NCBI GenBank assembly: GCA_947643165.1
Contig: CANRVB010000009.1
Span: forward strand, 1 to 64,000
DNA: 64,000 nucleotides
Reading direction: 5' to 3'
From: an uncultured Porphyromonadaceae bacterium
GTDB taxonomy: Bacteria; Bacteroidota; Bacteroidia; Bacteroidales; Muribaculaceae
Positions 11,124 through 17,436 of the stretch are shown one piece after another (position 1 is the stretch's first letter; the number at the start of each line of letters is the position of its first letter). The notes under the pieces were generated by a model. That model did no database searches. It was given only the letters and a program-made list of their open reading frames with translations, and was not told the origin of the DNA. The position numbers and the translations under genes were made by a program.

Positions 11124-11184
11124 GCTCGGAGATCCGGAAGTGGATCGCGAGGTGTTACCGATCAAATCATTCAATTGTCTGAAA

Positions 11185-12747
11185 ATGAACCGTTTGCTAA
11201 TTTTGATGATCGTGCTTGCAGGTGCTATGCCGATCATGTCCCGAGAGCTTGAACTGACATCGCCCGACGGCCGTATAAAAGTCGGAATCGATGCGGGAAA
11301 GGAGACCGTGTACACTGTGAGTCTGGATGGGGATACTGTGATTCCGTCGGCCCAGCTGGGTCTGACTCTTGGCGACGGGAGACATATAGGCCGTGATGTG
11401 AAGGTGACGGGTGTGAAGAGAGGTAGTGCTGACCGGATGGTCGCGTCGCCCTTTTACCGTGCTTCGGAGATCCGGGATAATTACAATGAGCTGTCGTTCG
11501 GCTTGGCGAAGAACTGGCGGGTGACTTTCCGGGCGTACAATGATGGTGTGGCTTACAGGTTCGAGACTACGGAGAGGTCGGCGCAGAAGGTGGTCGACGA
11601 GACGGTGTGTGTTACGTTTGCGGGTGATCCGGAGGCAGTGGTTCCATACGTGATGTCGCGCTCGAAGTCGGCGGAGTCGTTTGAGACGCAGTTTTTCAAT
11701 TCGTTCGAGAATACGTATACGGAGGGCGCGTTGTCGTCGCTTGACAGCAACAGGCTCATATTTCTGCCGGGTATAGTCGAGGCTGTCCCGGGGGTGAAGG
11801 TTTGTTTCACGGAGTCGGATCTGATAGACTATCCGGGTATGTATCTGAATGCTCCGGGCGGGGGCGTGATGCGTGGTGTGTTTGCTCCGCGTCCGAAGAC
11901 TTTCAGTCAGGGTGGTCATAATAATCTGCAGATGCTCGTGACGGAGCGTGAGGATCATATAGCGGAGATACAGGGACCCCGGAGCCTGCCGTGGCGTATA
12001 GCTGTGATAGCCGACGATGATGTGACGCTCGCGTCGACGGACCTGACGTATCTGCTTGCGGCTCCGTCGCGAGTGGATGATATATCGTGGATACGTCCGG
12101 GCAAGGTTGCGTGGGACTGGTGGAACAACTGGAACATAGACGGTGTGAACTTTGAGTCGGGTATCAATAATGATACTTACAAGTATTATATAGATTTTGC
12201 GTCGGCGAACGGGATAGAGTATGTGATACTTGACGAGGGGTGGGCTGTAAACAAGAAGGCTGATCTGATGGCTGTGGTGCCTGAGATAGACTTAGCGGAG
12301 CTTGTGGCTTACGGAAAGGACCGGAATGTGGGAATAATACTGTGGGCGGGCTACCATGCTTTTGACAGGGATATGGAGAATGTGTGCCGTCACTATTCGG
12401 ATATGGGCGTGAAGGGGTTTAAGGTGGACTTTATGGATCATGATGACCAGGTGATGACGGATTTCAACCGTCGGGCGGCGGAGATGTGCGCGCGGTATCA
12501 TCTGATACTGGATCTTCACGGGACGTCGAAGCCTGCGGGTTTGAACCGGACGTATCCGAATGTGCTGAATTTTGAGGGTGTGAACGGACTGGAGCAGATG
12601 AAGTGGGCTCCGGATACGCTGGATCAGGTGAAGTATGATGTGATGATTCCGTATCTGCGTCAGGTTGCGGGTCCGATGGACTATACGCAGGGGCAATGCG
12701 GAATGCGTCGCGTGGAAGTTATTATCCGAGCAACAGTGAGCCGATGA
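11185..12747 (+). CDS. Glycoside hydrolase family 97, C-terminus lost by frameshift
   Basis: Secreted or periplasmic alpha-glycosidase of family GH97. I start at the ATG at 11185 because MNRLLILMIVLAGAMPIMS is a good signal peptide; an earlier in-frame start at 11140 would spoil it. Visible family landmarks are PGKVAWDWWNNWNIDG near residue 307, VILDEGWAV near 350, GFKVDFMDHDDQ near 410 and LNFEGVNGLEQMKWAP near 460. The Asp in KVDFMD matches the nucleophile of the retaining, alpha-galactosidase-like branch (family knowledge). After MDYTQG the frame runs out at 12747; one extra base in the G run at 12690-12693 would join it to the frame that ends at 13172 and give about 662 residues. Confidence 0.88.
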   Translation: MNRLLILMIVLAGAMPIMSRELELTSPDGRIKVGIDAGKETVYTVSLDGDTVIPSAQLGLTLGDGRHIGRDVKVTGVKRGSADRMVASPFYRASEIRDNYNELSFGLAKNWRVTFRAYNDGVAYRFETTERSAQKVVDETVCVTFAGDPEAVVPYVMSRSKSAESFETQFFNSFENTYTEGALSSLDSNRLIFLPGIVEAVPGVKVCFTESDLIDYPGMYLNAPGGGVMRGVFAPRPKTFSQGGHNNLQMLVTEREDHIAEIQGPRSLPWRIAVIADDDVTLASTDLTYLLAAPSRVDDISWIRPGKVAWDWWNNWNIDGVNFESGINNDTYKYYIDFASANGIEYVILDEGWAVNKKADLMAVVPEIDLAELVAYGKDRNVGIILWAGYHAFDRDMENVCRHYSDMGVKGFKVDFMDHDDQVMTDFNRRAAEMCARYHLILDLHGTSKPAGLNRTYPNVLNFEGVNGLEQMKWAPDTLDQVKYDVMIPYLRQVAGPMDYTQGQCGMRRVEVIIRATVSR

Positions 12748-13172
12748 GCCAGGGGACGCGTTGCCGTCAGCTGGCTCTGTATGTTGTGCTTGATTCGCCG
12801 CTGAATATGCTGTGTGACAATCCGTCGAACTATATGCGTGAGCCGGAATCGACTTCGTTTATAGCGGGGATTCCTACGGTGTGGGATGAGACCGTGATAC
12901 TTGACGGTGAGATGGGGCGATATATAGCTGTGGCCCGTCGCAAGGGTGAGAAGTGGTATGTTGGTGGCCTTACGGACTGGACGGCCCGGGATATTGAGGT
13001 TGATCTGTCGAAGCTGGGTCTGAGCGGGGAGCGGCAGGCTGTGTTGCTTCGGGACGGTGCGAATGCTCACAGGAAGGGCTGTGACTACCGGCGTGAGGAG
13101 CTGAGGGTTGATCGGAGCGGCAAGTTGAGGGTGCATCTGGCTCCAGGCGGAGGATTTGTGCTGGAGCTTTAG
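12694..13172 (+). pseudogene. Out-of-frame C-terminal part of the GH97 gene
   Basis: Continues the GH97 protein in the -1 frame: NASRGSYYPSNSEPMSQG, then SPLNMLCDNPSNYM, IPTVWDETVILDGE and the small C-terminal beta domain ending GGGFVLEL. These are normal GH97 C-terminal sequences, so the gene was intact before one base was lost at the G run 12690-12693. As the sequence stands this part is not translated with the catalytic domain unless ribosomes slip there or the run varies in length. Confidence 0.85.
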
Positions 13173-13497
13173 GGAGCTGCTGATAGGGATATGCCGGGGG
13201 GCAATATGGCGGAGGTGATTTAACATGGCGGGGTGATTTAACATGCCAAAGGCATGTCCGTACGATTTTTTGGGGGATTCCATCTCGGCGTTGCTTATAT
13301 GCCGGGGGGGGCGGGCCATGCGATTTTTGGGCGGGAATTATGATGTGCCAATGCGATTCAACATGCCGGAGGCATGTCCGTACGATTTGGGGGGTCCATC
13401 TCGGATTTGGAGGGGATGGTGTGGTGGTGTGGGGCATGCGGCAGAAGTATGGTCTTTGAAACGGGAATACGCGTGTGGGGATGAGATGATAGATTGA
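13173..13497 (+). repeat. REP cluster 1 (two full REP copies plus degenerate ones)
   Basis: Non-coding stretch after the GH97 stop. Full copies have arms ACATGCC and GGCATGT around a three-base loop, then CCGTACGA: hairpins at 13241-13257 (loop AAA) and 13361-13377 (loop GGA). They are 120 bases apart; between them is a degenerate copy (ATGCC...GCCATGCGATTTTT, about 13294-13330). Further decayed pieces precede the first copy. Runs of G and T after each hairpin differ in length between copies. All point the same way. Confidence 0.85.
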
Positions 13498-13549
13498 GGT
13501 TTTTTTGAATTGTTAGTTTTTATATAGATGTGTTAACTATATTAAATTG

Positions 13550-13557
13550 TATATTTG
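13550..13557 (+). promoter_or_regulatory. Candidate -7 box of lipoprotein gene 1
   Basis: TATATTTG lies 24 bases before the ATG at 13581 within an AT-rich leader that is repeated almost exactly before lipoprotein gene 3. No clear -33 element at the usual distance. Confidence 0.4.
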
Positions 13558-13580
13558 AGGCGAAACATAAAACTAAGACC

Positions 13581-14186
13581 ATGAAGAAGATAATGAGACT
13601 TATTGCGGCTATTGGCGCTGTTTGCTGTATTCTGCAAGCACAGGGTTGTCAGAACGATGCAGAGGGGGTTCAGAACCATACGCAGAGTGATCAGAACTAT
13701 ACCCAAATAGTATGTAATGATTCTATAACTCTGCGAATTCGTGCAATAGATAAGAAAACGGGCAAAACAATACTCCATCCACGGTTCTCTGTAGAATATA
13801 TGGATTCGCTTGGAGATCGGAAGATGCTGGACATGGCGAGTCGCGGGGGCGTTAACAACGATGATATTTCGCGGTATTGGATATATGAGGATGAGACGGG
13901 TGAGTATGGTGTGTGGAAAATAGGTCTGCCCTCGGAGGGTGAGTATGATTTGAATATTACCATCGGGTGTTGGAATATATATTCTGACCAGTTCGGTAAT
14001 CTCAGAGATATGCCAAACTACAGGTGGAAGGGTGGAAATGCAAAAGTGAACACGCGCGATCTGAGGGGCAACGCTGAGTACACGCTTGAGGATGTAGTGC
14101 TCGAGCGGACAACAAAGAGGGACCTGGAATCGGAAGATATGAAGGGAGTCATCAAGTTTTTCAAGGAACAATTGGATCTTTGGTGA
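13581..14186 (+). CDS. Small lipoprotein of unknown family, paralogue 1
   Basis: I do not recognise this family. The 201-residue protein starts with MKKIMRLIAAIGAVCCILQ and a probable lipidated Cys (AQGC, residue 23). The mature part looks all-beta: SITLRIRAIDKKTGK, ILHPRFSVEYMDS, SRYWIYEDETGEYGVWKIG, MPNYRWKGGNAKVNTRDLRG, then a charged helix-like end GVIKFFKEQLDLW. A strand pattern of this kind suggests an Ig-like or carboxypeptidase-regulatory-like fold (inference). The leader and first codons match paralogue 3, whereas the 3' third matches paralogue 2, so the gene looks like a recombinant. I start at 13581 because earlier in-frame codons overlap the -7 box. Confidence 0.75.
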   Translation: MKKIMRLIAAIGAVCCILQAQGCQNDAEGVQNHTQSDQNYTQIVCNDSITLRIRAIDKKTGKTILHPRFSVEYMDSLGDRKMLDMASRGGVNNDDISRYWIYEDETGEYGVWKIGLPSEGEYDLNITIGCWNIYSDQFGNLRDMPNYRWKGGNAKVNTRDLRGNAEYTLEDVVLERTTKRDLESEDMKGVIKFFKEQLDLW

Positions 14187-14263
14187 AGTATGATTCCGGG
14201 ATATGGTCCATCTGTATGGATCTGGGATCAATTAGATATGAGGCGAAACATAAAACTAAGACC

Positions 14264-14839
14264 ATGAAAAAGATAATGAGACTTATTGCTGCTATTGTGG
14301 TAGGGGTGGCGGCTATTGGCACCGGGGGCTGTACACATAATGGTCCGGCAGATGCGCCGGAGATAGGTTGTGACTCGGTGACTATACGGGTATGTACGAT
14401 AGACAAGAAAACGCGTAAGGCGATTCTGCATCCGCGGTTCTCGGTTGAATATATAGACTCGGAGGGTAACAGTCGTATATATGACAAGGCAAGCGGTGTG
14501 GCTATTGATGAGCCTTATAATTCACGATATTGGATATATGAGGATGAGACGGGTGAGTATGGTGAGTGGAAAATCGGTCTGCCGAAGAATGGGGACTATG
14601 ATCTGATTGTCAATGTTGCGTGCATGAGTCTTTATACCGATAAGTTCGGACATCTTGGGGAAATGCCTAATTACAGATGGAAAGGTGGAAATGCAAAAGT
14701 GAACACGCGCGATCTGAGGGGCAAGACGGAGTATACGTTCCCTGATGTAGTGCTTGAGCCGACTACAAAGGAGGAGCTTGAGTCGGAAGGTATGAAGGGA
14801 GTCATCAAGTTTTTCAAGGAACAACTGGATCTTTGGTGA
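14264..14839 (+). CDS. Small lipoprotein of unknown family, paralogue 2
   Basis: 191 residues, same unknown family. Signal MKKIMRLIAAIVVGVAAIG with lipobox-like TGGC (Cys 24). Its first 70 codons are almost identical to paralogue 3 (CTHNGPADAPEIGCDSVTIR onward), while its last 60 codons follow paralogue 1 (KGGNAKVNTRDLRG; GVIKFFKEQLDLW). Only the short leader GAGGCGAAACATAAAACT is shared upstream and there is no -7 box, so it is probably co-transcribed with paralogue 1, 77 bases earlier. Its stop codon lies inside the 13-base microhomology at which the second arm of the duplication begins. Confidence 0.75.
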   Translation: MKKIMRLIAAIVVGVAAIGTGGCTHNGPADAPEIGCDSVTIRVCTIDKKTRKAILHPRFSVEYIDSEGNSRIYDKASGVAIDEPYNSRYWIYEDETGEYGEWKIGLPKNGDYDLIVNVACMSLYTDKFGHLGEMPNYRWKGGNAKVNTRDLRGKTEYTFPDVVLEPTTKEELESEGMKGVIKFFKEQLDLW

Positions 14840-15380
14840 AGTATGATGTGATGATTCCGTATCTGCGTCAGGTTGCGGGTCCGATGGACTATACGCAGGG
14901 GCAATGCGGAATGCGTCGCGTGGAAGTTATTATCCGAGCAACAGTGAGCCGATGAGCCAGGGGACGCGTTGCCGTCAGCTGGCTCTGTATGTTGTGCTTG
15001 ATTCGCCGCTGAATATGCTGTGTGACAATCCGTCGAACTATATGCGTGAGCCGGAATCGACTTCGTTTATAGCGGGGATTCCTACGGTGTGGGATGAGAC
15101 CGTGATACTTGACGGTGAGATGGGGCGATATATAGCTGTGGCCCGTCGCAAGGGTGAGAAGTGGTATGTTGGTGGCCTTACGGACTGGACGGCCCGGGAT
15201 ATTGAGGTTGATCTGTCGAAGCTGGGTCTGAGCGGGGAGCGGCAGGCTGTGTTGCTTCGGGACGGTGCGAACGCTCACAGGAAGGGCTGTGACTACCGGC
15301 GTGAGGAGCTGAGGGTTGACCGGAGCGGCAAGTTGAGGGTGCATCTGGCTCCAGGCGGAGGGTTTGTGCTGGAGCTTTAG
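14835..15380 (+). pseudogene. Second copy of the GH97 3' end
   Basis: A 546-base fragment of the GH97 gene placed directly at the end of lipoprotein gene 2. It has no start, signal peptide or catalytic domain and so cannot make an enzyme. It carries the same four-G run (14898-14901) and hence the same frame break as the first copy, while differing elsewhere at a few positions (for example GCGAACGC for GCGAATGC near 15270). This means that the one-base loss is either older than the duplication or was spread by gene conversion, unless both come from the same homopolymer error. Confidence 0.9.
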
Positions 15381-15795
15381 GGAGCTGCTGATAGGGATAT
15401 GCCGGGGGTGGCAACATGGCGGAGGTGATTTAACATGCCGGGGTGATTTAACATGCCAAAGGCATGTCCGTACGATTTTTTTGGGGGGGATTCCATCTCG
15501 GCGTTGCTTATATGCCGGGGGGGCGGCCCATGCGATTTTTGGGCGGAATTATGATGTGCCAATGCGGTTTAACATGCCGGAGGCATGTCCGTACGATTTT
15601 GGGGGGGATTCCATCTCGGCGTTGCTTATATGCCGGGGGCGGGCCATGCGATTTTTGGGCGGAATTATGATGTGCCAATGCGGTTCAACATGCCAGAGGC
15701 ATGTCCGTACGATTTGGGGGGCCATCTCGGATTTGGAGGGGATGGTGTGGTGGCGTGGGGCATGCGGCAGAAGTATGGTCTTTGAAACGGGAATA
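15381..15795 (+). repeat. REP cluster 2 (three full REP copies)
   Basis: Counterpart of REP cluster 1 in the second duplication arm, longer by one unit of about 118 bases. Hairpins lie at 15451-15467 (loop AAA), 15572-15588 (loop GGA) and 15688-15704 (loop AGA), each followed by CCGTACGATTT. The two intervening spacers are nearly identical and each contains the degenerate copy ending CCATGCGATTTTTGGGCGG. No coding capacity is credible here. Confidence 0.88.
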
Positions 15796-15875
15796 CGCGT
15801 GTGGGGATGAGATGATAGATTGAGGTTTTTTTGAATTGTTAGTTTTTATATAGATGTGTTAACTATATTAAATTG

Positions 15876-15883
15876 TATATTTG
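15876..15883 (+). promoter_or_regulatory. Candidate -7 box of lipoprotein gene 3
   Basis: TATATTTG, 24 bases before the ATG at 15907, in a leader that duplicates that of lipoprotein gene 1 (offset 2326). Confidence 0.4.
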
Positions 15884-15906
15884 AGGCGAAACATAAAACT
15901 AAGACC

Positions 15907-16476
15907 ATGAAGAAGATAATGAGACTTTTTGCTGCTATTGTGGTAGGGGTGGCGGCTATTGGCACCGGGGGCTGTACACATAATGGTCCGGCAGATGCGC
16001 CGGAGATAGGTTGTGACTCGGTGACTATACGGGTATGTACGATAGACAAGAAAACGCGTAAGGCGATTCTGCATCCGCGGTTCTCGGTTGAATATATAGA
16101 CTCGGAGGGCAACAGTCGTAGATACGATCTGGCAAGCAGTATTGCGATCAATGATGAGCGTTCACGATATTGGATATATGAGGATGAGACTGGCGAATAT
16201 GGTGAGTGGAAAATCGGTCTGCCGAAGAATGGGGACTATGATCTGTATGTGTATGTGGGTTGCGCAAGTATATATACCGATAAGTTCGGCCATCTGATAG
16301 ATGTGCCAAACTACAGGTGGAAAAGTAACTGGACTAAAAGGGTGAATACGCGCGATCTGCGAGGCAAGAAGGAGTATACGTTCCCGGATGTGGTGCTGGA
16401 GCCGGCTTCAAAGGAGGAGCTTGAGGAGCTGAGTGGCGTTTTCGAGTATATCAGGGAAAAGCTGAATATATTGTAG
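15907..16476 (+). CDS. Small lipoprotein of unknown family, paralogue 3
   Basis: 189 residues, third member of the unknown family. N-terminal MKKIMRLFAAIVVGVAAIG and TGGC lipobox as in paralogue 2. It shares the middle segments SVEYIDSEGNSRRYD and YWIYEDETGEYGEWKIGLP but has a distinct C-terminus (VPNYRWKSNWTKRVNTRDLR, ending EYIREKLNIL). It is the copy next to the transposase and may be the ancestral one, since the sequence downstream is not part of the duplication. Function unknown; a surface or periplasmic lipoprotein is the most that can be inferred. Confidence 0.75.
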   Translation: MKKIMRLFAAIVVGVAAIGTGGCTHNGPADAPEIGCDSVTIRVCTIDKKTRKAILHPRFSVEYIDSEGNSRRYDLASSIAINDERSRYWIYEDETGEYGEWKIGLPKNGDYDLYVYVGCASIYTDKFGHLIDVPNYRWKSNWTKRVNTRDLRGKKEYTFPDVVLEPASKEELEELSGVFEYIREKLNIL

Positions 16477-16757
16477 GGTGGTGAAAGATGTTATTTGTGG
16501 CGGGTTCAGGAGATAAGATGCGGGAGTTGATCCAATCAAATGCGACCAATATGGTCGAGGTGGTTCAACATGCCGGAGGCATGTCCGTACGATTTGGAGG
16601 CGGAATTATGATATGCCAATGCGGTTCAACATGCCGATGCGATTCAACATGCCGGAGGCATGTCCGTACGAGTGGAGGGGCATCTCGGATTTGGAGGGGA
16701 TTCAATCTGGGGATGCCGCTTGCTTTTTTTATTAAAAACGTGATAATTACATAGGAT
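16477..16757 (+). repeat. REP cluster 3, upstream of the transposase
   Basis: Two full REP copies with hairpins at 16568-16584 and 16647-16663 (both loop GGA), each followed by CCGTACGA, plus a truncated half copy (GGTTCAACATGCC, about 16623-16635) that looks like the scar of a nested insertion. The remainder up to the transposase start is AT-rich and empty. Confidence 0.85.
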
Positions 16758-17222
16758 ATGGAGCAGTACAGAAAGTCGCCGCGTGCAAGATTTCTTGAGT
16801 ATGACTCGGGGGATTATTTTATTACTATCTGTACGAGGGGCAGGAGGCACTATTTCGGCGAAATCGCGGGGGCTGAAATGAGGCTGTCGGCAATCGGTGT
16901 TTTTGTGAGTGATCAGCTTGAGAGATGTTCTGAGTTTTGTCCTGATATTTCTATTCCGCTGTTTGTGGTTATGCCTAACCATCTTCATTTTATTGTCTCG
17001 TTAGAGGGGGCGGTGGTTACGAAGGGGTTTGAACAGCGTTCGCCTATTGCGGCGCTGAGGGGGGCGGTGACGAAGTATGCGAGGGCTTCGGGGATCGATT
17101 TCGGGTGGCAATCGCGTTATTATGACCATATGATTCGGGGGGCCAGGGATGGAAATAATATCTGTGAGTATATTCTTAATAATGTTGCCATGTGGCGGGA
17201 GGATTGTTTTAATGGGGGTTGA
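16758..17222 (+). CDS. REP-associated tyrosine transposase (RAYT, Y1/HUH family)
   Basis: A 154-residue single-domain protein of the transposase-IS200-like (Y1) superfamily, of the kind that binds and cuts REP hairpins as single-stranded DNA. The opening RARFLEYDSGDYFITICTRG, the HUH metal motif VMPNHLHFIV near residue 74, and WQSRYYDHMIRG followed by ICEYILNNVAMWRED near the end are the RAYT hallmarks. It has no IS200 ends of its own; instead two REP copies lie on each side in the same orientation. The start at 16758 is followed directly by conserved sequence. Full length for the family, no stop or frameshift, so it may be active. Confidence 0.92.
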   Translation: MEQYRKSPRARFLEYDSGDYFITICTRGRRHYFGEIAGAEMRLSAIGVFVSDQLERCSEFCPDISIPLFVVMPNHLHFIVSLEGAVVTKGFEQRSPIAALRGAVTKYARASGIDFGWQSRYYDHMIRGARDGNNICEYILNNVAMWREDCFNGG

Positions 17223-17436
17223 TATTTCAGGTGGGACAATATGCATTCAACATGCGGGAGCGATTCAACATGCCAGAGGCATGTCCGTACGATTTGGGAG
17301 GGATTCGATAGGGGGTTGGATATATGCCGTGGGTTGGACAACATGCCAGAGGCATGTCCGTACGATTGGGGGGGGATGCAATAGGGTATTGGGGAATGGG
17401 TAATTTGATGTAAATAAATATAATAAATGTTAAATA
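17223..17436 (+). repeat. REP cluster 4, downstream of the transposase
   Basis: Two full copies, hairpins at 17268-17284 and 17341-17357 (both loop AGA), each followed by CCGTACGATT, plus a decayed half copy at about 17246-17256. Same orientation as all others. The cluster ends about 100 bases before the rimP promoter. Confidence 0.85.

Follow-up and report, generated by a model that had tools for sequence, protein, structure and literature searches.

A candidate REPtron with a natural GTAC foot: REP-like hairpins around a RAYT gene in a Muribaculaceae genome

The window considered here, the first 64,000 nucleotides of contig CANRVB010000009.1 from an uncultured Muribaculaceae bacterium, carries a gene for a putative REP-associated tyrosine transposase (RAYT; 16758..17222, plus strand) set among palindromes that resemble repetitive extragenic palindromes (REPs), and the two are treated here as a candidate REPtron, i.e., a RAYT with its cognate REPs. 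A search of the window for the pattern ACATGCCnnnGGCATGTCCGTACGA, with three mismatches allowed, recovered nine copies from 13241 to 17365, spread over some 4.1 kb around the RAYT gene, against an expected count of zero in 100 shuffles. Every match was perfect and lay on the plus strand as written, in a single orientation, with a loop of AAA, GGA or AGA. Copies 1 and 2 occupy 13241..13265 and 13361..13385, copies 3 to 5 occupy 15451..15475, 15572..15596 and 15688..15712, copies 6 and 7 lie upstream of the RAYT gene (16568..16592 and 16647..16671) and copies 8 and 9 downstream of it (17268..17292 and 17341..17365); all were located by the pattern search, joined by folding for copies 2, 6 and 9 and by duplication analysis for copies 3 to 5. 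By the coordinates of the open reading frames (ORFs), the copies are intergenic. Read on the minus strand, each consists of TCGTACGG followed by a 7-bp stem with a 3-nt loop, and can be summarized as GTAC-GG-hairpin, the GTAC being the foot of the element. Folding computed for window copies gave the single-stranded hairpin -6.5 kcal/mol, and the stem is weak (z -1.7 to -2.6 for minus-strand copies). The original prediction, made from the letters of this locus, had described coordinates, arms, loops, flank and single orientation as we find them, and its placement of two copies on each side of the RAYT gene, the flanking arrangement of a REPtron, likewise holds; an excess over shuffled sequence and a position between likely genes, which it put forward as checks, were also found.

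The RAYT gene encodes 154 amino acids in an uninterrupted ORF, and its product resembles TnpA-REP-like HUH/Y1 transposases, with an NHLH motif, the segment WQSRYYDHMIR and a tyrosine within EYILNN. H75, H77 and Y138 are invariant in an alignment of the window RAYT with five relatives, which supplies the HUH motif and the single catalytic tyrosine of this class. NCBIfam model NF047646 (REP_Tyr_transpos) scores the protein at 49.9 bits, under a curated cut-off of 80 that was passed in none of the eight related genomes searched, and Pfam Y1_Tnp is matched weakly. Searched against the PDB by sequence, the protein has one plausible relative, E. coli TnpA-REP (4er8; E 0.00099). The best PDB fold match of an AlphaFold model built from six sequences (mean pLDDT 74.5) is this same entry, in which the E. 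coli protein is held with a REP hairpin (E 4.7e-6), and IS200/IS605 transposases come next. The window RAYT is without a 20-residue stretch found in all five relatives of the alignment. This gap hinted at a lost helix and a defective RAYT, an idea we rejected because the model retains a helix at residues 96-110; a complete RAYT with an HUH motif, as originally predicted, is thus upheld, with the proviso that the stretch is missing and the helix is a predicted one. A REP-derived peptide, RHVP, lies inside the gene in five of five relatives and is absent from the window RAYT. At three other loci (L045, L048 and L051; ORFs of 239-346 aa) the RAYT frame runs upstream through REP arrays, with repeated peptides of which VGTHA and NVGLHP are examples, and a further locus, L313, holds a second RAYT.

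The foot sets this repeat apart. GTAC occurs in nine of nine window copies, and a GTAG or GTGG tag 0-2 nt 5' of the stem, as a canonical REP would have, is found at none; the window repeat is therefore a variant rather than a canonical REP. The closest RAYT, that of L107 (72% in the six-protein alignment), has GTAGGG-ACATGCC on both sides of its gene, and since the relatives mostly carry GTAGGG at the same place, TCGTACGG can be regarded as the classical GTAG tag carrying a substitution at its final base. The supposition that the recognition element precedes the hairpin on the complementary strand fits this well, as reading the minus strand puts the tag 5' of the hairpin. The view that the repeat is unlike the enterobacterial ones has to be adjusted with respect to the flank, which is the same-place GTAG tag with one base altered.

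How common this foot is was surveyed at 119 RAYT loci, comprising the window and fetched relatives (L192 was dropped as giving no hit, the overlapping L335 was left out, and two of the 119, L190 and L311, gave no hit over the motif), counting the foot nearest the stem for stems of at least 50% G+C. Among 384 hairpins near or inside the gene, GTAG accounted for 264, GTAC for 30, GTGG for 9 and GTGC for 8, followed by GTAA (4), GTGA (3), GTAT (3) and GTGT (2); further from RAYT genes, 113 hairpins included 35 GTAG and 3 GTAC. GTAG or GTGG feet were present at 95 of the 119 loci, and most loci have a GTAG separated from the stem by 0-2 nt; in L093-L172, fetched with a pattern demanding a trailing G, there is a bias in the base that precedes GTA. 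On the GTAC strand the loop begins with T in 30 of 30 GTAC copies. The fourth foot base across the 38 repeat-bearing genomes of the family is G 313 times, C 44 times, T 5 times and A once, and GTAC is concentrated by genome: 10 of 10 copies in the genome of the window, 7 of 8 in G039, 4 of 4 in G311, 3 of 4 in G395, 4 of 7 in G402 and 13 of 46 in G085, against 3 of 278 in the remaining repeat-bearing genomes (G347, 0 of 46). From these counts GTAC looks like a subtype rather than the product of decay.

The hairpin is tied to a particular group of RAYTs. RAYT homologues were found in 84 of 198 genomes, that of the window included, and the density of hairpins with a GT[AG][GC] foot is 1.62 per kb at distances up to 600 bp from 39 RAYT genes, compared with 0.17 per kb further away; 29 of these 39 loci have such hairpins near the gene. 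In a tree of 39 RAYTs, which excludes L186, L188, L190 and L205 as broken, partial or too distant, the window protein clusters with L107, L162, L133, L100, L060 and L061 (bootstrap 99), all members with ACATGCC hairpins; four of the seven were found through the repeat and so are not independent evidence, while the window, L060, L061 and the broken L186, which is not in the tree, were reached through the protein or through the window itself. A hairpin differing by one base, ACGTGCC, stands beside the gene as a clade variant in G299 and G240, and neighbouring RAYT clades carry other arms (ACGGTGC in G300, ACATCGC in G246). Across 397 family genomes the exact REP was present in 14 of the 15 with a clade RAYT versus 24 of 382 others, where the 15 are 13 genomes at or above 264 bits plus the genome of the window and the broken case of G085, the miss is G300, the 264-bit line was drawn after the data had been seen, and the profile was built from 6 of the 15. 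When these six are left out, the exact REP remains in eight of nine genomes with a clade RAYT (Fisher 7e-9). At most eight candidates were scored per genome in this survey, so some RAYTs may have been missed; full rescoring of 16 of the 24 exceptions yielded no intact clade RAYT and, in G404, a broken, clade-like partial copy (L311).

These figures argue for a strong, though not exclusive, link between the hairpin and one RAYT clade, as judged from sequence comparison. They also settle two expectations attached to the original prediction. The repeat is not confined to one locus, being present in 38 of 397 family genomes; that it should occur only where the RAYT is present stands in so far as 14 of 15 carriers have it, and fails for the 24 of 382 genomes that have it without a clade RAYT. 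With the fold match to 4er8 and the REP-type hairpins beside most related RAYTs, the reading of the locus as a REP/RAYT system is sustained. Among the features that count against it, REP copies persist in those 24 genomes, and the neighbouring pairs of the window are direct in five of five cases, so that the inverted pairs of a BIME (bacterial interspersed mosaic element) or REPIN are missing here. Elsewhere the arrangement differs, with 26 of 34 neighbouring pairs inverted and tags outside in the fetched loci other than the window, and the same hairpin reaches 46 to 54 copies, dispersed, in G085, G347 and G330. Several genomes, namely G330 (54 copies), G107 (30), G336 (24) and G233, have many REPs and no matching-clade RAYT that we could find; such REP-rich genomes may reflect RAYT loss, orphan REP populations or assembly gaps. 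A phage origin was considered and set aside, as the REP pattern matched one viral stretch and no RAYT was found in viral contigs searched with a single protein, a search that reaches close relatives only.

A role in transcription termination or RNA stability, with no connection to the RAYT, would accord with the intergenic position of the hairpins and with their folding as single strands, and a weak stem, a strand-specific foot, a loop that starts with T throughout the GTAC copies and the linkage to a RAYT clade all speak against it. We regard this explanation as most improbable, and rejected termination as the main function because the foot is strand-specific and the hairpin is linked to the RAYT.

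Part of the local abundance of the repeat probably has a separate origin. Upstream copies 1-2 and 3-5 belong to two clusters of one segmental duplication, starting at 12627 and 14835 and thus 2208 bp apart, with 300 nt at 100% identity. The first segment (12627..13614; repeat families D2 and D7) contains the 3' end of a GH97 gene, REP copies 1-2 and the start of a lipoprotein-like gene, and the second (14835..15940) contains a GH97 3' end fragment, REP copies 3-5 and again the start of a lipoprotein-like gene; the junction of the second has GGTGAAGTATGAT, which is also present where the first lipoprotein-like gene ends. The segments and this junction suggest that part of the locus underwent an ordinary tandem duplication. 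Five of the nine window copies lie inside these related clusters and are consequently not independent, so the five further upstream copies originally noted are indeed present and cannot be counted as five separate insertions. The genome of the window (2.64 Mb in 46 contigs, 88.5% complete) has ten perfect copies, of which nine are at the RAYT locus, and the other is on the minus strand 67 kb away (C9:84487). No further RAYT-like match was found in this genome beside the window RAYT. A degenerate copy with three mismatches and a GTAG foot lies at C9:85377, also on the minus strand; near it is an ORF that looks TIR-domain-like by sequence appearance (L043, 5781-6659; outside the window).

Such a locus invites a neutral explanation, in which a single mutated founder gave rise to the other copies through tandem duplication and recombination close to the RAYT, the changed base having no function. 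The five copies in duplicated clusters suit it, as does the single orientation of all window copies, which has parallels in same-orientation arrays by the RAYT in G427 and G347. We nevertheless think it rather unlikely, because C at the fourth foot base outnumbers A and T together by 44 to 6, and because GTAC is present in about nine lineages, parsimony requiring nine changes (shuffled mean 12.4, minimum 9). The 13 loci with GTAC, among 117 aligned over the recognition segment, are diverse in their arms as well: ACATGCC in the window, GGTCGTTCC or GGTCGTTGC in L388-L390, GGACGCGA in L189, L191 and L310, ACGCGGC in L313 and L382, ACGCGCC in L344, GGACGCTTT in L364, GGACGCGCC in L369 and ACGTGCC in L301. 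L388-L390 have GTAC only, in inverted flanking pairs.

The protein side of the interaction shows corresponding changes in many of these loci. Contacts of E. coli TnpA-REP to GTAG include Q95, E100, H101 and R104, as given in the text of two studies (Cornet 2018, PMC6006769; Corneloup 2021, PMC8266576); the residues surveyed were chosen from these papers, and the survey itself was made after GTAC had been noticed. At the 84 GTAG loci the equivalent of Q95 is Q, that of H101 is H or R and that of R104 is R, without exception, whereas at least one of the three positions is changed at 8 of 13 GTAC loci. Asn occupies the Q95 position in L388-L390 and Leu in L364, Phe occupies the R104 position in L388, L389 and L369, and Asn the H101 position in L189, L191 and L310. 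The Asn of L388-L390, at three RAYTs with GTAC-only inverted pairs and at a position that is Gln at all 84 GTAG loci, is a further point against a neutral founder. Counted by identity clusters, changed residues appear in 6 of 10 GTAC versus 0 of 72 GTAG clusters at 70%, 6 of 10 versus 0 of 41 at 60% and 3 of 4 versus 0 of 10 at 50%, counts based on 85 GTAG loci, for which L056, L312 and L370, whose hairpins are AT-rich, were assigned by hand to the GTAG class and L188 to the class lacking a foot; requiring stems to be at least 50% G+C makes hand assignment unnecessary and leaves the 13 GTAC loci unchanged, with 84 GTAG loci. Several observations pull the other way. The window RAYT retains the equivalents of Q95, H101 and R104, as do L301, L313, L382 and L344, so the residue covariation does not include the window RAYT; its one oddity in the segment is Met at the next position, which is shared with L313, L382 and one GTAG locus (L056). 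Furthermore, 2 of 20 loci without a foot are also changed (L188, of another class, and L381).

What a changed foot might do can be considered by analogy. TnpA-REP cuts single-stranded DNA beside the hairpin at C|T, with the tag serving as guide, according to the Corneloup study (PMC8266576). There, a Marinomonas TnpA given an engineered GTAC foot moved its cutting to GA and GT (PMC8266576), and the Stenotrophomonas maltophilia enzyme given GTAC kept binding and lost cutting (PMC8266576), an outcome that tells against a retargeted guide. From these two outcomes, a natural GTAC system would be either retargeted or a binding site that is not cut. We infer RAYT activity, strand use and cutting from such precedents: the RAYT would bind the minus-strand hairpin when single-stranded, for instance during replication, would read the GTAC foot two bases from the stem, and would cut or join DNA beside the foot, spreading REPs, with cutting at G|A or G|T in place of C|T or C|A, or with binding and no cutting. 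Our preferred interpretation, to which we give a probability of roughly 70%, is that the locus is a REPtron of RAYT and cognate REPs whose foot is a switched GTAG guide and whose local copies were multiplied by tandem duplication. A retargeted cut predicts a C-to-G switch in the 3' flank, and in the pooled flanks this is seen, G[TA] occurring within the first 6 nt in 29 of 40 GTAC versus 61 of 146 GTAG copies (P 0.0007; 0.002 without the genome of the window), in a test devised after the data had been seen and on copies that are related to one another. Within G085, a genome of mixed feet, the same comparison shows no significant difference, at 9 of 11 versus 18 of 31 (P 0.27). More tentatively, and at rather less than even odds, the RAYT/REP systems of Bacteroidales may have switched from GTAG to GTAC about nine times, with Q95N/L, H101N and R104F compensating in most lineages and cutting moved from C|T and C|A to G|A and G|T, the window, with GTAC only, representing an early stage before the contact changes.

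The S. maltophilia result lends itself to a different account, in which the RAYT binds the GTAC copies near its gene without cutting them, and these act as operator-like or locking sites that repress the gene or prevent excision of the locus. Proximity to the gene is what this account predicts, and G473 provides it, with 5 of 5 GTAC copies no more than about 3 kb from the RAYT and 24 of 25 GTAG copies elsewhere, where all 24 copies are GTAG (Fisher 4e-5). So do G311, G106 and G088, where 5 of 5 exact GTAC copies with the GGACGCGA hairpin are at or inside the RAYT (a count of GTAC copies only), and the genome of the window, with nine of ten copies at the RAYT locus. Yet ACATGCC-type GTAC copies are dispersed over contigs in G039, G085, G311 and G402, so that spread of GTAC copies is, or once was, possible; only 7 of 14 GTAC copies in G427 are on the RAYT contig C45; and most same-clade RAYT loci have GTAG beside the gene. 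We consider this account unlikely. Four inverted pairs on contigs C45, C34 and C23 of G427 combine one GTAC with one GTAG foot, which recalls the differing end guides of IS200/IS605. Asymmetric pairs as left and right ends were examined in the ACATGCC family and dismissed, as no rule emerged (19 GG, 3 CG, 3 CC and 1 GT).

RAYT/REP systems of Bacteroidetes are already published (Cornet 2018); the novelty of the present case lies in its natural GTAC foot. The relevant text of Di Nocera 2013 (PMC3733652) places GTAG repeats in Proteobacteria, Cyanobacteria, Chloroflexi and the PVC group and, for Bacteroidetes, only CGTC repeats, and that of Nunvar 2010 (PMC2817692) gives GT(A/G)G heads to all its REPs. 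According to Cornet 2018 (PMC6006769), Bacteroidetes have RAYTs of subclasses 2.4 and 2.6, and the 2.4 genes contain inserted REPs; the REP search of that study used GTAG or GTGG, and no word of the text covered starts with GTAC. Our literature search found no report of natural GTAC-tagged REPs, its scope being text apart from GTAC inside longer printed sequences, subscription papers and supplements. Subclass 2.4 (Bertels group 4), as its description in that paper has it (PMC6006769), shares with the window RAYT its occurrence in Bacteroidetes, a WQ motif, a YIxNN tyrosine motif and REPs flanking the gene, and the 2.4 hallmark, a REP inserted in frame between the HUH and tyrosine motifs, is seen in relatives of the window RAYT. 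The window differs in having NHLH where 2.4 has NH[IFV]H, YILNNV ending in V rather than P, no REP insertion in the gene, a stem base of A-T with unpaired GG, and a foot of GTAC rather than GT[AG]G. The Marinomonas REPtron Mb, so far as described in the Corneloup text (PMC8266576), is similar in its short perfect stem, a foot 2 nt off the stem and copies concentrated near the gene; unlike the window, it belongs to group 3 and is naturally GTAG, and the window RAYT seems nearer to a different group. E. coli TnpA-REP (4er8) shares the fold and the GTAG-contact segment W-Q-..-D/E-H-..-R, but its REPs are long, bulged and GTAG-tagged, and the window protein, at 154 aa, has nothing that corresponds to the C-terminal tail with which the E. 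coli enzyme contacts the final two bases of the foot.

At stake are the choice of cut site by RAYTs and the co-evolution of RAYTs with REPs, for which we found a single test with an engineered guide (PMC8266576). GTAC in place of GTAG would be expected to alter where, or whether, a RAYT cuts, and natural GTAC systems with matching protein changes in several lineages would let the guide model be tested by swapping proteins and hairpins. Surveys that require GTAG or GTGG, as the search described in the text of Cornet 2018 did, may thus miss real REPs.

The genes around the repeats have features of their own. The GH97 alpha-galactosidase gene (11140-13172) is split, the ORFs at 11140-12747 and 12696-13172 matching consecutive parts of one model, and the same 3' part recurs at 14904-15380. 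Between the REP clusters, at 13580-16476, are three paralogous short lipoprotein-like genes; the first, the only one of the three scanned, had nothing over the Pfam cut-off and no NCBIfam match, and the third resembles a recombinant between the other two.

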